Source of the DNA: Methanococcoides sp.
GTDB taxonomy: Archaea; Halobacteriota; Methanosarcinia; Methanosarcinales; Methanosarcinaceae
Length of the DNA: 64,000 nt
NCBI GenBank assembly: GCA_021108275.1
Contig: JAIORD010000019.1
Location: 1-64,000 of the forward strand
Reading direction: 5' to 3'
The notes beneath the pieces were generated by a model that saw only the letters and a program-made list of their open reading frames with translations, was not told where the DNA came from and did no database searches. This document shows, in pieces, positions 36,763 through 45,366 of the stretch. The position numbers and the translations under genes are program-made. Position 1 is the first letter of the stretch. Every line of letters begins with the position of its first letter.

Positions 36763-37752
36763 ATGTCAGAGATACGCAAGCACTATTTTCTGGATGAATA
36801 TTGCATAATAGCACCAGGAAGAAGTAAAAGGCCTTCAGTGTTCAAATCAGAAAAGAAAGAAAAGGCCTCCAATAAATGTGTTTTTTGTGCCGGGGAAGAA
36901 GATAAAACTCCTCTTTCAACTGCGGTTTATAAAAATGGCAGTATTCTGAAAGATTCCGAAAGTTCAAGAATAACAGGATGGGATGTACGTTGCATACCAA
37001 ATCTTTATCCTGCACTTGATCCGGATGCCAGTGAAGTTAATTCAGATAATGAGGTATTTCCAGGTTATGGTTTTCATGAAGTTATAGTTGAAACACCTGC
37101 GCATGAGAATATGATCCCTGATCTTTCAGATGAAGAGATGTCATTACTTATGAAGGTCTATTAGGATCGTGTAATACACTACGAAGCCATTGATAATATC
37201 GAATATGTCTCACTGTTTAAGAACTGGGGGGAAAAGGCAGGTGCGTCTCTGGAACATACACATTCCCAGCTAATAGCAATGCCCATTAAACCTCCGCTAT
37301 TAATGCGAGAATTGAAGGTCATCGGATCATTTTCAAGATGTCCTTATTGTGACATCGTAGAAAAAGAAAGCAAAAGTGAGAGGCTCTTATATGAAAATGA
37401 ACATTTTACGGTTATAGCACCTTATTGTTCAAAGGTCCCGTATGAGCTGTGGATCCTGCCTAAGGATCATATAAATCATATCTCAAGCTTTGATCAGGAC
37501 CAGTTGGACTCGCTGGGAAAAGCAATACGTTCTGCTCTCTCATGTCTCCGGGACAATATGGGCGAGATACCTTATAATTACATGTTCTATCAGCTAAGAG
37601 ATGAACCTGGATATCACTTTAATTTGAAGCTTCAACCGGTTACAACGAAGGCAGCAGGTTTTGAGAAAAATACCGATGTATACATTAATACAATGCCTCC
37701 GGAAACGGCTGTGAAATATCTTCAGGGTAATTTTCAGGATGGCTCTGAATGA
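36763..37752 (+). CDS. galT: Galactose-1-phosphate uridylyltransferase with an internal in-frame TAG (possible pyrrolysine)
   Basis: From ATG 36763 (SEIRKHYFLDEY) the frame is open to TGA 37752 except for TAG at 37162-37164, residue 134 of 329. Before it comes KCVFCAGEED and LMKVY; after it DRVIHYEAIDN, the active-site motif LEHTHSQLIA (HxHxQ) and a second CxxC (RCPYCDI). Homologues usually have a glutamine or arginine at the TAG site, so both halves belong to one GalT/HIT-fold enzyme. In a pyrrolysine-using methanogen TAG can be read through. The enzyme links hexose-1-phosphates with UDP-hexose, feeding the neighbouring synthases. A nonsense mutation is the alternative. Confidence 0.85.
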
Positions 37753-37814: not shown

Positions 37815-38978
37815 ATGGGGAAAAATTTAATGATCGGGATGTTCTCTTGGGAGAGTTTACACTCGATAAAAGTGGGTGGTATAGCTCCGCATGTTTCCGA
37901 ACTTGCTGAAGCTCTTGCGAAGACCGGACATTCAGTCCACATATTTACCAGAAATAATGGGCTGGAGCCATACGAAGAGGTCAATGGGGTTCACTATCAT
38001 AGGTTAGATCATTCTCTCTCTGGGGGAATTGTTCAGCAAATGGATAGCATGTGTGATTCAATGTACTCAAGATTCATTGATGTTACGAAGGAATATGGCA
38101 ATTTCGATATATTGCATGCACACGATTGGCATCCATTCAATGTGGTCTCAAGGATCAAATATGAATTTGGTATACCTTTTATGTTCACATATCACAGTAC
38201 CGAATGGGGACGGAATGGTAACATACATGGGAACTGGTGGGAAGCCGAGGAAATATCCCATAGGGAATGGAAAGCTGGCTATGAGGCTACGAAGGTCATA
38301 TCTACATCACAGCAACTTACAGATGAGATCAAGTTCCTGTACCAGATACCGGATGAAAAGATCTCGATCATTCCAAACGGTATCTTCCATGGAAAGATAA
38401 AAAAGGATGTTGATGCCGGTGAAGTGAAAGAGAGATTAGGTATCCATCCTCTTGCACCGGTCGTTCTGTTCATAGGACGTATGAGCTACCAAAAAGGTCC
38501 GGACCTGCTTGTTGAAGCTATCCCTGAAGTGCTGGATCATCGCTGGGACACTCAATTTGTTTTCATTGGTGAAGGTGAAATGCGCCCTCCCTGTGAAGCT
38601 CTTGCAAATGCTGAAAAAGTTTCAGACAATTGCCATTTCCTGGGGTATGTGGATGATGAAAGAGCCAAGGACTGGTTCAATGCATGTGATATTCTCTGTA
38701 TTCCAAGCAGGAACGAACCTTTTGGAATTGTTGTCCTTGAAGGGTGGGATGCTGAAAGGACCATCGTTGCAACAGATGCTGTCCAAATAATCGATAATTT
38801 CGTAGATGGGATCCTTGTCTACAAAAAACCGGATTCTATTGCATGGGGCATAAAGTACGTGCTTGATGACCTCTCCAATGGCAGCATGAGAAAAACCGGT
38901 AAAGAGCTTATAGAGACTAAATATAACTGGCTCAAGATTGCAGAAAATACAAGTGAAGCATACCTTGATGCTCTCTAA
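37815..38978 (+). CDS. GT4 glycosyltransferase, glycogen-synthase-like
   Basis: This 387-residue GT-B enzyme starts MIGMFSWESLHSIKVGGIAP and has LHAHDWHP in the first half, FIGRMSYQKGPDLL in the linker and PSRNEPFGIVVLEGW in the donor site. It belongs to the archaeal GT4 group often labelled glycogen or maltodextrin synthase. Lying 60 bases after galT and before the GH57 genes, it probably also builds alpha-glucan; its division of labour with the GT3-like synthase is unclear. Confidence 0.85.
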   Translation: MGKNLMIGMFSWESLHSIKVGGIAPHVSELAEALAKTGHSVHIFTRNNGLEPYEEVNGVHYHRLDHSLSGGIVQQMDSMCDSMYSRFIDVTKEYGNFDILHAHDWHPFNVVSRIKYEFGIPFMFTYHSTEWGRNGNIHGNWWEAEEISHREWKAGYEATKVISTSQQLTDEIKFLYQIPDEKISIIPNGIFHGKIKKDVDAGEVKERLGIHPLAPVVLFIGRMSYQKGPDLLVEAIPEVLDHRWDTQFVFIGEGEMRPPCEALANAEKVSDNCHFLGYVDDERAKDWFNACDILCIPSRNEPFGIVVLEGWDAERTIVATDAVQIIDNFVDGILVYKKPDSIAWGIKYVLDDLSNGSMRKTGKELIETKYNWLKIAENTSEAYLDAL

Positions 38979-39043
38979 AACTAAATTATGGCTATCAATA
39001 GTGCTGATGCCATCAATAACATAATAAAATAGGAGGCTTGGGA

Positions 39044-40174
39044 ATGCAGTCGGTTTGCATCTGTTCAGAAGTACATCTTCCTTGTGTGCTAAAGTGGTAC
39101 TGGCCATCGGAGGGCTATCGATCTCCGGAATTCGAAACATATTTTGATCAGCCCAAAATGTACTCTGCTTTAGAAAAAAATGTCCCGGAGATAATCCGTA
39201 CCAATGAAGCTTTGCTGGATTCCATAGATAACGGTGCAAAGTATACCTTTGATATATCCGGGATCTTTTTAGATCAATGTAAGTGGAATCCTGCTGTAAT
39301 AGAATCATTCAAGGAGCTAAAAGACAGGGGTGCCGGTTTTTCAGCATCACCCTATTATCATTCCATATCATCCCTTTTTCCTGATAATAAGGAATTTAAG
39401 GAACAGGTCACCATGCATCGGGATAAGATCAAGGAGATCTTCAATGTCAATCCCCGGACCTTCATAAATACTGAACTGATCCTTACAAAGGAGCTCAGTA
39501 CGATCCTTAAGGAGATGAAGTTCAAGTGCCTTATTTCAGAAGGGTCGGAGAACCTATTGTACGGAAATGATCCAAATCAGGTTTATGATAATCATATACC
39601 AACGCTCTTGCGTCACATACCCTTAAGTGAAGATATAGAGATCCGCTTTTCAGATCAGAAATGGATAAGCTATCCTTTGATCGCTGATAAATTTGCTTCA
39701 TGGATAGCTAACATGGAAGGCGATGTGACCACATTACATTTCAAATACAGTTCTATCCTTTCCCATCAGCAGAATAGAAGCGATATACTTCAATTCCTCA
39801 TCGATCTTCCGGCAAGTTTTGAGAAATATGGAATTTCCATGATAACACCTGAAGAAGCTTTGAAGAATTTTAAGACAAAGGAACTTCCATCTATCATGAA
39901 CAAGTCCACTTCTCGCTATGGGATGCATAATTTGATGGGTAATCACCCTCAGCACCTGTACCTGCATGAACTGATAAGTATCGGTGAGATCCTCCAGTCC
40001 AAAAAAGGTGCTCCTGAATATGATAAACTGAACTGTATCTATCGATACTTGCAGCAAAGTGAAATATTGCTGGAGATGGGGTCTGATAACCAGAATATTG
40101 GTTATGAAAAGGCAGTCAATATCTTCTCCGCACTTTCGGACTTTAAACGCGCAATACTGGAGGTGAAGGTATGA
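39044..40174 (+). CDS. GH57-family protein with altered acid/base residue (likely pseudoenzyme)
   Basis: From ATG 39044, 7 bases after AGGAGG, the protein has 376 residues. It aligns with the next gene throughout. The nucleophile motif is kept (FINTELILTK, E144), but the motif with the acid/base aspartate, FMDYETFGEHQ in the neighbour, reads HFKYSSILSHQ here with K234. The HQP of motif 1 is HLP. Loss of the acid/base residue suggests no normal glycosidase activity, so it may bind glucan or assist its partner. It overlaps the next gene by 4 bases (ATGA). Confidence 0.8.
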   Translation: MQSVCICSEVHLPCVLKWYWPSEGYRSPEFETYFDQPKMYSALEKNVPEIIRTNEALLDSIDNGAKYTFDISGIFLDQCKWNPAVIESFKELKDRGAGFSASPYYHSISSLFPDNKEFKEQVTMHRDKIKEIFNVNPRTFINTELILTKELSTILKEMKFKCLISEGSENLLYGNDPNQVYDNHIPTLLRHIPLSEDIEIRFSDQKWISYPLIADKFASWIANMEGDVTTLHFKYSSILSHQQNRSDILQFLIDLPASFEKYGISMITPEEALKNFKTKELPSIMNKSTSRYGMHNLMGNHPQHLYLHELISIGEILQSKKGAPEYDKLNCIYRYLQQSEILLEMGSDNQNIGYEKAVNIFSALSDFKRAILEVKV

Positions 40175-41373
40175 GATCCGTATGTATGTACTTCCAACTC
40201 CATCAGCCGTATCGTTTGAAGTGGTTCTGGCCGGATGATTCTAAAGGGTTTGAAAGGTATTTCGATGTTGCAATAAACAGGAGTATCTTCGAGAAGGTTG
40301 CCCGTAAGTGCTACCTTCCAGCCACGACCCTCCTGGCAGAACTCGTTGACCAGCATGAAGGCAATTTCAAGTTCAGTGTTTCAATAACCGGAACTCTCCT
40401 AAGCCAGTGCGAAAAATGGAATCCTGATGTACTTGACGTTTTCACCCAACTTGCAGACTCAAAACGGGTGGAATTCATCGATGAGACCAATTATCATTCC
40501 CTTGCAGGTCTTTTCGATGATAAGAATGAGTTTCGGGAACAGATTCGGGAACATCATGAGCTTACTTCAGACCTACTTGGTGTAAAACCACAGGTTTTCA
40601 GGAACACAGAACTCCTTTACAACAACAGTATTGCGGAAACAGTTTCATCCATGGGTTACAAGGCCATCCTTACGGAAGGTGTTGATCAGCTGTTGGACTC
40701 CCGATCCCCCAATTATGTCTACAAAGCAAAGGATTGTGGTCTACCTGTTCTTCTCAGGAACTATAAGATGAGTGATGACATAGGTTATCGTTTCTCAGCA
40801 AGATGGTGGGAAGAGTATCCATTAACTGCTGACAAGTGGGCAAACTGGGCATCCACAGAACAAGGGGATTGTATGAACATCTTCATGGATTACGAGACCT
40901 TTGGTGAGCATCAATGGTCCGACTCCGGAATCTTTGATTTCCTTAGGGCTTTACCTGGTGAGGTCCTTGACAAAGGTCTTGAGTTCAATACTCCTTCTGA
41001 GATCGTCGAGAAGTACGAACCGGTAGGAGAGGTAGATGTCGGGGACTTTAACACGATCTCATGGGCAGATATGGAGAGGGATACGAGTGCATGGCTTGGT
41101 AACGACATGCAGCGTAGATGCTTCGAAGAGGCAAAAATGCTTGGACCTTACGTGAAAAGAACGAATGATCCGAAGCTCATCAGCATATGGAGGCATCTTC
41201 TTACATCTGATCACTATTACTACATGAGTACAAAATGGTTAGGAGATGGAGATGTACATTCGTATTTCAGTATCCATACATCACCCTATGATGCAGCCAT
41301 AAATTTCATTGCAGCATTATTGGATTTCAAATCCTGTGTTTTCAGGAAACTGGCTGAAATGAACAAAGAATGA
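40171..41373 (+). CDS. GH57 alpha-amylase
   Basis: The 400 residues carry all main GH57 motifs: FQLHQPYRL near the start, nucleophile in VFRNTELLYN (E147), acid/base in IFMDYETFGEHQW (D240) and the later YFSIHTSPYDAAINF. It hydrolyses or disproportionates alpha-1,4-glucan in the cytoplasm; no signal peptide is present. It is translationally coupled to the degenerate GH57 gene upstream, which suggests a fixed ratio or a complex. Confidence 0.9.
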   Translation: MRSVCMYFQLHQPYRLKWFWPDDSKGFERYFDVAINRSIFEKVARKCYLPATTLLAELVDQHEGNFKFSVSITGTLLSQCEKWNPDVLDVFTQLADSKRVEFIDETNYHSLAGLFDDKNEFREQIREHHELTSDLLGVKPQVFRNTELLYNNSIAETVSSMGYKAILTEGVDQLLDSRSPNYVYKAKDCGLPVLLRNYKMSDDIGYRFSARWWEEYPLTADKWANWASTEQGDCMNIFMDYETFGEHQWSDSGIFDFLRALPGEVLDKGLEFNTPSEIVEKYEPVGEVDVGDFNTISWADMERDTSAWLGNDMQRRCFEEAKMLGPYVKRTNDPKLISIWRHLLTSDHYYYMSTKWLGDGDVHSYFSIHTSPYDAAINFIAALLDFKSCVFRKLAEMNKE

Positions 41374-41395: not shown

Positions 41396-43339
41396 TTGAT
41401 CAGGCATCCAAATGCTATACTCGGCAATGATGAACTGCTTGTATCAATGGGTGAAAAAGGCAATCTTCTGGGATATTTTTACCCAAGGAGAGATTGGGCT
41501 CAACATCTTGTAGAGTCCAAAGCCTGCATTTACACAGGGGGGAATCTACTATGGACGGATTCTCCTGAATGGACCTCTAAACAGGAATATGTGGATGGTA
41601 CGGATGTGATCTCAACCCATCTGTCCCATTTTTCCGGTGTTGAAGTATCAATTCATGACTTTATGCATAAGGAAATGCCTGTCCTTGTACGAAAGTATGA
41701 GATCACATCAAAAGAGCATATCAGTGGCAAATTCTATTATTATTCTAATTTTCAGGCAGGTGAGACCCATCTGAGAAACTCTGCTTTTTGTGATCCTAAT
41801 GCCAGTCTGCTTGTTCAATACATGCAGAACTTCTACATTGGTACATCAAGTGCTCCGAAATTTGAGGAGTGGCAGGTTGGTAAGATACAGGAGAATGGGT
41901 GGGTGGCAAGTGCTAGAAGTGATATGGAGGATGGTAGTCTCCAGCAAAATGTCGAAGAGATCGGTGATCTGGACAGTTCGATCGGGTGGGAGCTTAACCT
42001 CTTGCCTGGTGAAAGTACCACGATCACGCTTTTTATCGGTATTTCTTCAGAAAGACAGTTGATATACGACCTGCTGGCTGATGTTCTGGAACAGTCCTCT
42101 GCTGACATAATTCATGGATATGAAGATCGTTCAGCTCGATGGTTATCAAAAAAGCGAGCTTTAGAATTATCCGCACTGGAAGATGATCCCCTTTTCAAAA
42201 AAGAGGTGACTAGCTTATACGTTCGCTCATTGCTCTCTCTGAACTTACTGAATGACCCTGATGAGGGATCATTTGTAGCTTCCCCTGAGTTCGACCCTGC
42301 TTTTGAGATGTGTGGTGGATATGGGTTCTGCTGGAACAGGGACTCGGTAGAAGTCGTTCTTGCTCTATTGAATGCTGGTTATCCTGAATTTGCGGCAAAG
42401 TTCTTTGAATGGTGTAAAAGAACACAACTTCCAAATGGTTCGTGGTTCCAGAGGTACTGGCTTGATGGAAAGGAAGCTCCTTCCTGGGGTAATTTTGATG
42501 ATTCGACCCAGATTGATGAGACCGGTTCAACGCTTTATGCGTTTGATCAATATTACCTAAAACTGGAAGTGTCTGAAAGAGCTGAATTCCTTAAAACCAT
42601 TTGGGAAACGGTGCGTAGAGGTTCAGAATATCTCATGGGAAGGACTGTCCAGGGGCTTCACGATCCATGCAGGTGCCTGTGGGAATCCGATAAAGGCATA
42701 TTCAGTTATACGAATGCTGCTATCTATGCCGGTCTGAAAGGTTCTGCTCATCTGGCCGGGGAAAATGGTGAACCGATATTTGCAGAAAAATGGTTCGATA
42801 GGGCTGAACTGGTCAGGAAGGAGACCATTGAGAAACTGTGGCTTGAGGAAGGCTATTTTTCCCGTGGCATCATTGACAACAATATCCACAGGACCGTGGA
42901 TTCGAGTATTGTCGGCACTTTTATTCCCTTTTCTCTTCTTTCACCGAACGATCCTGATGAAAAGGCCATGATACTCTCAATGATAGAGCATATTGAAAAT
43001 GCTCTCAGGATTCCGGTCAATGGATATTTTGGGATCAAACGTTATGAAAATGACAGCTATATAGGTGGTAATCCCTGGGTAGTTACAACATTATGGCTTT
43101 CCCGTGCCTTGCTCACTCTTGCTGTATCGCTGAGGAACAAGGATGATGAATATGACCTGCTGGTGAATAAGGCAATTGAATACATTAAATGGACAATTAG
43201 AAGCACTACCAGCACCGGTCTTTTGTCCGAGCAAGTGGATAAGAACACCGGGCAAGCTACATGGGCCAGACCTTTAGGCTGGAGCTGTGCACTATTTATC
43301 GAAAATGCTCTGCTTCTGAATGAATTGAAAAAAGCGTGA
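41396..43339 (+). CDS. GH15 glucoamylase-like glycosidase
   Basis: The 647 residues have an N-terminal beta-sandwich (to about 270) and an alpha/alpha-barrel typical of archaeal GH15. Motifs include MCGGYGFCWNRDSVEVVLAL and a carboxylate-rich loop STQIDETGSTLYA carrying a likely acid; the base would be in the C-terminal third. It releases glucose or trims ends of alpha-glucans. No signal peptide, so it is cytoplasmic. TTG at 41396 is chosen because AAAGGAGGG precedes it by 7 bases. Confidence 0.87.
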   Translation: MIRHPNAILGNDELLVSMGEKGNLLGYFYPRRDWAQHLVESKACIYTGGNLLWTDSPEWTSKQEYVDGTDVISTHLSHFSGVEVSIHDFMHKEMPVLVRKYEITSKEHISGKFYYYSNFQAGETHLRNSAFCDPNASLLVQYMQNFYIGTSSAPKFEEWQVGKIQENGWVASARSDMEDGSLQQNVEEIGDLDSSIGWELNLLPGESTTITLFIGISSERQLIYDLLADVLEQSSADIIHGYEDRSARWLSKKRALELSALEDDPLFKKEVTSLYVRSLLSLNLLNDPDEGSFVASPEFDPAFEMCGGYGFCWNRDSVEVVLALLNAGYPEFAAKFFEWCKRTQLPNGSWFQRYWLDGKEAPSWGNFDDSTQIDETGSTLYAFDQYYLKLEVSERAEFLKTIWETVRRGSEYLMGRTVQGLHDPCRCLWESDKGIFSYTNAAIYAGLKGSAHLAGENGEPIFAEKWFDRAELVRKETIEKLWLEEGYFSRGIIDNNIHRTVDSSIVGTFIPFSLLSPNDPDEKAMILSMIEHIENALRIPVNGYFGIKRYENDSYIGGNPWVVTTLWLSRALLTLAVSLRNKDDEYDLLVNKAIEYIKWTIRSTTSTGLLSEQVDKNTGQATWARPLGWSCALFIENALLLNELKKA

Positions 43340-43383: not shown

Positions 43384-45366
43384 ATGTCCTCATATACAAT
43401 AAACAATGATGAATTCGATCATGCTTCTGCTATTTCCCGGGAATGGCTTATCACGAACGGTATCGGAGGTTATGCATCATCTACTATCATTGGTGAGAAT
43501 TCCAGAAAATACCATGGTCTACTGATCGCTTCTGCAAATCCTCCGGTCGACCGTAGGGTACTGCTTTCTTCCCTTGATGAAGAGCTCATTGTTGGAAATG
43601 AGGTCTATCGTCTTGCAGCCCACAGGTATCCCAATACATTGTATCCTTCCGGTTTCAAATATCTCGAGCGTTTTTCTGCTTCTCCGCTACCAACCTTTGA
43701 GTACAGTATCGGGAACATTAAACTGATAAAGAATATCTTCATGATCCATGGGCAGAACACCACAATTGTCAGGTACAAACTAATAAATCCTGATAATGAG
43801 GACCTCGTTTTCCGTATATTGCCTCTTGTGACCAACAGGGATTTCCACCAGCTTAAAAGGGCAGATGAGGTCAGTTTTAGTGAAAGGCATGATGCTTCAG
43901 GAGTTCAGTTGAGAACTGTTGATGGTGTTCTGCAACTGCGGTCCAATATGCAATATGAACAGGAATCACAATGGTACTATAATTTAGAATATGATACTGA
44001 ACGTGAGCGAGGGGAAGCTTATCAGGAAGATCTCTATAACCCTGGTCATTTTGAAAGACAGGTCTCGGATCATGTGAGTGAAATGTATGTTGTAGCTTCG
44101 ACCTCTGTTTCAGAAAATATGGAATTCGATATCGAACTTGTTAATTTTGAATATGAAAGGGAACTTTCAAGGCAAAGCTCTCTGCAGGACTGCTGCAATT
44201 TAACAGATGATCTCGCACAGAAGCTCGTCAGTGCTGCAGACTCTTTCATTGTACAACGAAACTCTACCAGTTCAAAAACGATACTCGCAGGTTATCACTG
44301 GTTTGCGGATTGGGGACGGGATGCGATGATCTCGCTTCCGGGGCTTACTCTTGTAACAGGAAGGTTCAATGATGCAAAAGCTATTCTGACCACCTTTTCT
44401 GAAAATTGTTCACAAGGCCTCATGCCAAACCGTTTTTCAGATGACGGGCTTTCTCCTACGGATTACAATACAGTCGATGCTTCACTCTGGTTCATCCATT
44501 CCCTTGGGCGATATTATTCCTATACCAGGGATATCGAATTTGTTAAGAAGATGTGGGATACGGTTGGATCAATTATCCACAAATACATCGAAGGGACCTT
44601 ATACGGTATCCGTATGGATGAGGATGGACTCATTGAGCAGGAAGGGCAGCTTACTTGGATGGATGTGAAGGTCGGTGATAGGGAGATCACACCAAGAGCT
44701 GGAAAAGCATGCGAGATAAACGCTTTGTGGTATAATTCCCTCTGTATTGCCAACTGGCTGGGGGAATTGATAGGTGCAGACACAAAGCAGTATCTTGAAA
44801 CCTCTCAATTGGTAAAGAACAACTTCGTTGATACTTTCTGGAACCCGACGGAGAAGTGTCTTTATGATTACATATCTGTGAATGAGGATATGTCTGTCAG
44901 TAAAGATGCATCTATCAGGCCGAACCAGATATTTGCAGTTTCATTACCTTACACGATGCTTGATCCTGAAAAGGAGAAAATGATCGTTGAAAGGGTGACT
45001 GAAGAACTCCTAACTCCTTATGGTCTGAGGACCTTATCACCGGCTGACAGCCAGTATATCGGAAGATACAGAGGTGACAGGGATTCCCGGGACCGTGCAT
45101 ATCATAATGGCACGGTCTGGCCCTGGCTACTTGGACCATTCGTGGCTGCATATGCAAAGGTACACGACAGTTCTCCCTCAAGTCTGGAATATTGCAGGCA
45201 ATTGTTGCTCAATTTTGGATCCCATTTTGATGAGGCTGGAATAGGAACAATTTCCGAGATATTTGATGGTGATATCCCGCACAGACCAGATGGATGCATT
45301 TCCCAGGCATGGAGCGTGGCTGAGATATTACGGGCCTATGTTGAAGATGTGAATATTCAAAGTTAA
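43384..45366 (+). CDS. Glycogen debranching enzyme (amylo-alpha-1,6-glucosidase, GH133)
   Basis: The 660 residues have the N-terminal GDE domain (WLITNGIGGYASSTIIGENS, KYHGLLIAS) and the C-terminal (alpha/alpha)6 barrel with ILAGYHWFADWGRDAMISLPG, YNTVDASLWF and YHNGTVWPWLLGP. It removes alpha-1,6 branch stubs during glycogen use. It is the last gene of the operon, 44 bases after the GH15 gene. Confidence 0.92.
   Translation: MSSYTINNDEFDHASAISREWLITNGIGGYASSTIIGENSRKYHGLLIASANPPVDRRVLLSSLDEELIVGNEVYRLAAHRYPNTLYPSGFKYLERFSASPLPTFEYSIGNIKLIKNIFMIHGQNTTIVRYKLINPDNEDLVFRILPLVTNRDFHQLKRADEVSFSERHDASGVQLRTVDGVLQLRSNMQYEQESQWYYNLEYDTERERGEAYQEDLYNPGHFERQVSDHVSEMYVVASTSVSENMEFDIELVNFEYERELSRQSSLQDCCNLTDDLAQKLVSAADSFIVQRNSTSSKTILAGYHWFADWGRDAMISLPGLTLVTGRFNDAKAILTTFSENCSQGLMPNRFSDDGLSPTDYNTVDASLWFIHSLGRYYSYTRDIEFVKKMWDTVGSIIHKYIEGTLYGIRMDEDGLIEQEGQLTWMDVKVGDREITPRAGKACEINALWYNSLCIANWLGELIGADTKQYLETSQLVKNNFVDTFWNPTEKCLYDYISVNEDMSVSKDASIRPNQIFAVSLPYTMLDPEKEKMIVERVTEELLTPYGLRTLSPADSQYIGRYRGDRDSRDRAYHNGTVWPWLLGPFVAAYAKVHDSSPSSLEYCRQLLLNFGSHFDEAGIGTISEIFDGDIPHRPDGCISQAWSVAEILRAYVEDVNIQS

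Follow-up and report, generated by a model that had tools for sequence, protein, structure and literature searches.

A gene for a GalT-family nucleotidyltransferase in the Methanococcoides genome studied here carries one in-frame TAG, which is very probably a private CAG to TAG change that is decoded as pyrrolysine, gives a full-length enzyme and is close to neutral. The gene lies in the window, the whole stretch of 64,000 nucleotides that was analysed, and coordinates without a contig label refer to this stretch. The source is a draft assembly with a completeness of 99.4%, comprising 60 contigs and 2.67 Mb.

A GalT-family gene intact apart from one TAG

The frame from 36763 to 37752 on the forward strand runs from ATG to TGA over 330 codons and holds a single internal TAG, codon 134 (37162–37164); when this TAG is read through, the product has 329 residues. 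Re-reading of the frame bore out the preliminary description on the single TAG and on the lack of further defects, none being present in the 330 codons. The motifs that it had placed in one frame on both sides of the TAG were also confirmed: CVFC, the first CxxC (residues 39–42, 36877–36888), lies upstream, and the HxHxQ active-site motif HTHSQ (residues 165–169, 37255–37269) and CPYC, the second CxxC (residues 193–196, 37339–37350), lie downstream. Both CxxC motifs are invariant in the homologue alignment, as are H165, H167 and Q169. Identity to four congeners is 91–94% over all 329 residues, unbroken across the TAG (the named relatives at 93–94% are Methanococcoides alaskense, M. seepicolus and one Methanococcoides MAG), and the Pfam GalP_UDP_transf match (residues 76–173) crosses codon 134.

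Termination at codon 134 would leave an N-terminal fragment without HTHSQ. Since the first in-frame ATG, GTG or TTG 3′ of the TAG is at 37279, just past HTHSQ, a second fragment restarted there would lack the motif as well. Without read-through, an intact active site would thus be present in neither fragment, and a search of the genome for a second copy of the gene did not find one.

The dN/dS ratio downstream of the TAG, measured against four congeners, was 0.12–0.21, about the same range as among the TAG-free congeners themselves (0.08–0.19), which indicates that the downstream coding sequence is not there by chance. The changes private to this species were 8 synonymous and 4 non-synonymous downstream of the TAG, and 5 synonymous and 6 non-synonymous upstream. 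The dN/dS values and the private changes show no decay, but with a TAG that may be very young they are no proof of constraint after its appearance.

Codon 134 in relatives and in the structure model

The preliminary description proposed comparing the codon in close relatives. All ten congeners have a sense codon at this position (CAG in seven, CGG in two and CGT in one), and TAG occurs here in the source genome alone. The TAG is thus probably a recent point mutation with a C-to-T change, most simply CAG to TAG, on this species' branch. Outside the genus, the codon specifies Arg or Lys in other Methanosarcinaceae and also Ser or Ala further out. In an alignment of 17 homologues, Y133, D135 and R136 are invariant, while residue 134 varies (Q, R, K, S or A across the relatives). 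An AlphaFold2 model of the protein (pTM 0.77) places residue 134 in the middle of a helix spanning residues 123–141 (37129–37185), with a local pLDDT of about 96 and outside the HxHxQ and CxxC motifs. Given this variable, mid-helix position between invariant Y133 and D135-R136, pyrrolysine should be tolerated at residue 134.

Pyrrolysine machinery and release factor

A search for the pyl genes found the complete pylTSBCD set, with tRNA-Pyl (anticodon CUA), pylS, pylB, pylC and pylD consecutive on contig C1 at about 220.5–225 kb. The absence of pyl genes, which the preliminary description had named as refuting its reading, is thus not the case, and its suggestion of a Methanosarcinaceae genome with pyrrolysine as the most likely meaning of TAG in an enzyme unrelated to methylamines is supported. 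The methylamine methyltransferase genes mttB and mtbB of the same genome contain one TAG each. The genome also encodes aRF1, in which the NIKS and YxCxxxF motifs are retained, so UAG can probably still be recognised as a stop, in competition with read-through. The presence of aRF1 fits the model of competition between UAG decoding and termination in the review literature (PMC9499178).

A PYLIS-type or other stimulatory RNA structure was sought at the galT TAG. Rfam gave no match in the window, and the predicted fold after the TAG was weaker than that of shuffled sequences (z = +1.75), giving no sign of a stimulatory structure. Such a structure is not considered a requirement for pyrrolysine read-through.

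TAG itself ends pylB (C1:221990–223051; L045:1990–3051, with L167–L181 for the other genomes) throughout the 11 Methanococcoides genomes, as well as in 3 of 5 further Methanosarcinaceae; it lies immediately 5′ of the pylC start and is kept despite the rarity of TAG stops. Such a pylB end is already on record (PMC2933860) in M. mazei, M. acetivorans and M. burtonii. A feedback role for this terminal TAG is only a guess.

TAG usage in the genome and the genus

TAG statistics were obtained from about 450 kb of sampled sequence (17% of the genome) with 388 predicted genes. The first stop was TGA in 211 genes, TAA in 168 and TAG in 9 (2.3%). Six of these nine TAGs are internal, in mttB, mtbB, galT, a histidine kinase, an AlbA_2 protein and a hydantoinase fusion; the kinase TAG falls inside HATPase_c and that of the AlbA_2 protein inside AlbA_2. 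At least ten TAG-containing frames were found in the source genome. The share of TAG among first stops was 2.4% in genome G006, which we take to be M. burtonii and which has CGG at galT codon 134, 1.1% in a further congener (G010), 5.5% in the pyl-bearing genome G020 and 17.1% in G039, a relative without pylS. Judged from these counts, TAG is nearly a sense codon in this genus and UAG seldom terminates.

Continuation of coding sequence after a TAG was rejected as evidence of read-through when taken alone, as G039, which lacks pylS, has eight such cases. When seven of these were read through as a control, a Pfam domain crossed the TAG in none of the seven, and the cases reflected adjacent genes sharing a frame. 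The criterion adopted was thus a domain that spans the TAG or an uninterrupted fused frame in congeners.

Two of the other internal TAGs were followed further. A hydantoinase A-B fusion (C1:146730–150344; L041:6730–10344) has a private TAG at its linker; its congeners have one open frame with GAG, AAG, GAT or AAT at this site. A long protein encoded on the minus strand (C1:38027–40279; L090) has a C-terminal AlbA_2 domain broken by one in-frame TAG, and a full-length relative was not found in the genus. The domain scan of this protein covered the AlbA_2 part, and it is presumably of the DUF262 type, a label taken from its fold family.

Enzyme identity and gene neighbourhood

The preliminary description had named the product a galactose-1-phosphate uridylyltransferase. 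Membership of the family holds, since the GalP_UDP_transf domains, the HxHxQ motif and the GalT fold of the hexose-1-phosphate nucleotidyltransferase superfamily are all present. The specific identity does not, as the score against TIGR00209, the NCBIfam galT equivalog, is 79.7 bits, below the cut-off of 102.1. The nearest solved protein in both sequence (E = 4.5e-70, about 29% identity) and fold is Arabidopsis At5g18200 (1z84, 2h39), and the title of entry 2h39 is ADP-glucose phosphorylase. 'GalT' is thus used here as a family name and not as a statement of substrate. At5g18200 gives the best match over the whole enzyme but, besides its low identity, has no pyrrolysine; by analogy with it, ADP-glucose may be the substrate of the archaeal enzyme.

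The placement beside a glycogen gene cluster agreed with the annotated neighbours, all on the forward strand. Upstream is a glycogen synthase-like glycosyltransferase (PF05693, 34882–36687), and downstream is a GT4/GlgA-like glycosyltransferase (37815–38978); these two flanking genes are conserved beside the GalT-family gene in other Methanosarcinaceae. They are followed by two GH57 glycoside hydrolases (39038–40174 and 40171–41373), a GH15 oligosaccharide amylase-like enzyme (41396–43339) and an archaeal-type glycogen debranching enzyme (43384–45366). The GalT-family enzyme is likely to serve nucleotide-sugar turnover alongside glycogen metabolism.

Proposed explanation and alternatives

Starting from what was read directly from sequence, namely the intact frame, the pyl genes, the congener codons, the rarity of TAG stops and the other TAGs inside domains, we propose that a sense codon, most simply CAG, was recently turned into TAG by a point mutation in a UAG-decoding Methanococcoides species. 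PylB, PylC and PylD would make pyrrolysine, PylS would charge tRNA-Pyl(CUA), and the charged tRNA would insert pyrrolysine at residue 134 (we infer both the insertion and its efficiency). The result would be a full-length and probably active enzyme, given the variable mid-helix site. With UAG rarely terminating in the genus, sense-to-UAG mutations would be near-neutral and could drift into ordinary genes. A pyrrolysine-specific role for the residue is not indicated.

The gene could instead be a fresh pseudogene, in which the TAG mostly terminates, the enzyme has been lost in this strain and the remaining frame has yet to decay. A TAG private to the source genome may have arisen very recently, the genome encodes aRF1, and the private changes upstream of the TAG lean to the non-synonymous side. 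We nevertheless regard this as unlikely, since the 330 codons contain no other defect, the downstream private changes are mostly synonymous, and TAG is decoded in essential catabolic genes of the organism, which also retains TAGs in conserved kinases. A sequencing or assembly error at 37162, where the true base would be C, has in its favour that the assembly is a 60-contig draft and that CAG, found in seven congeners, differs from TAG by one base. A chance substitution creating a TAG in this gene would be expected to be rare in a polished draft, however, and many in-frame TAGs of the same genome are common to other species, so that such an error seems very improbable.

There is also only a slight chance that the pyrrolysine itself is functional or regulatory, the residue or a dependence on charged tRNA-Pyl conferring a selected property such as coupling of glycogen to methylamine metabolism. 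The location of galT in the glycogen cluster would suit such a role, and in Acetohalobium the decoding of UAG is known to be growth-dependent (PMC8211752). Against it, none of the ten congeners has TAG at this variable residue, which lies away from the catalytic motifs. The particular idea that the galT UAG is a sensor, yielding full-length enzyme only when pyrrolysine is plentiful during growth on methylamines, is similarly doubtful; if true, carbon storage would track substrate.

Relation to known pyrrolysine proteins

The near-neutral decoding that we prefer for galT has a precedent in Thg1, the tRNA-His guanylyltransferase of Methanosarcina acetivorans, which acquired pyrrolysine by neutral evolution according to the account of Heinemann 2009 given in PMC2933860 and PMC3639795; the neutral route is discussed in PMC3639795, and insertion of pyrrolysine at an introduced amber codon of a reporter in M. 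acetivorans is described in PMC2933860. As summarised in these sources, Thg1 resembles galT in being a non-methylamine enzyme with one in-frame amber in one species, a sense codon in relatives and pyl genes in the genome. It differs in that its read-through and the dispensability of the residue were established by experiment, whereas galT is known from sequence. With TAG in one species and sense codons in relatives, galT by this comparison probably belongs with the Thg1-type neutral acquisitions. The methylamine methyltransferases MtmB, MtbB and MttB share with galT the one in-frame TAG and the same pylTSBCD system, but their pyrrolysine is catalytic and conserved, whereas that of galT would stem from a private mutation at a position that varies. 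The description of galT as an unusual pyrrolysine protein was thus overstated, given this private change, the ten or more TAG frames in the genome and the Thg1 precedent.

A 2025 report in Science is said to describe an archaeal 'Pyl code' in which every TAG means pyrrolysine. Such archaea would resemble Methanococcoides in that TAG is rare as a stop and lies inside many ordinary genes; a literature search did not find the term 'Pyl code' used with M. burtonii. Standard annotation would make the galT gene a pseudogene or a split gene, while reading TAG as pyrrolysine gives a whole enzyme. With CAG in sister species, it is a clean example of an ordinary gene that has acquired UAG by drift in a genus where this codon seldom terminates, and bears on the transition from stop codon to sense codon.

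Histidine kinases with a conserved TAG

An in-frame TAG was found at the same HATPase_c codon in 20 PAS-type histidine kinases from all 11 Methanococcoides genomes searched, in the context KFTPENGCI[TAG]INA...DNGIGIP. The source genome contributes C1:50946–52880 (L099), C7:16348 (L110), one on C25 (L188) and C2:76443 (L189), and the others are from congeners (L102, L106, L107, L109, L182–L187 and L190–L195). Other kinase paralogues have threonine at this site. A histidine-kinase TAG candidate has been listed for Methanosarcina and Methanohalophilus (PMC3639795). Retention of the kinase TAG across species and paralogues suggests that it is under selection, in contrast to that of galT, and these kinases would be a better test than galT of functional pyrrolysine beyond the methylamine enzymes. 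A second group of histidine kinases, from three species, has a conserved TAG two codons upstream of that HATPase_c site (PEGG[TAG]V/I), with one member in the source genome (C4:24417–25926, L199) and one in each of the genomes G009 (L198) and G002 (L200).
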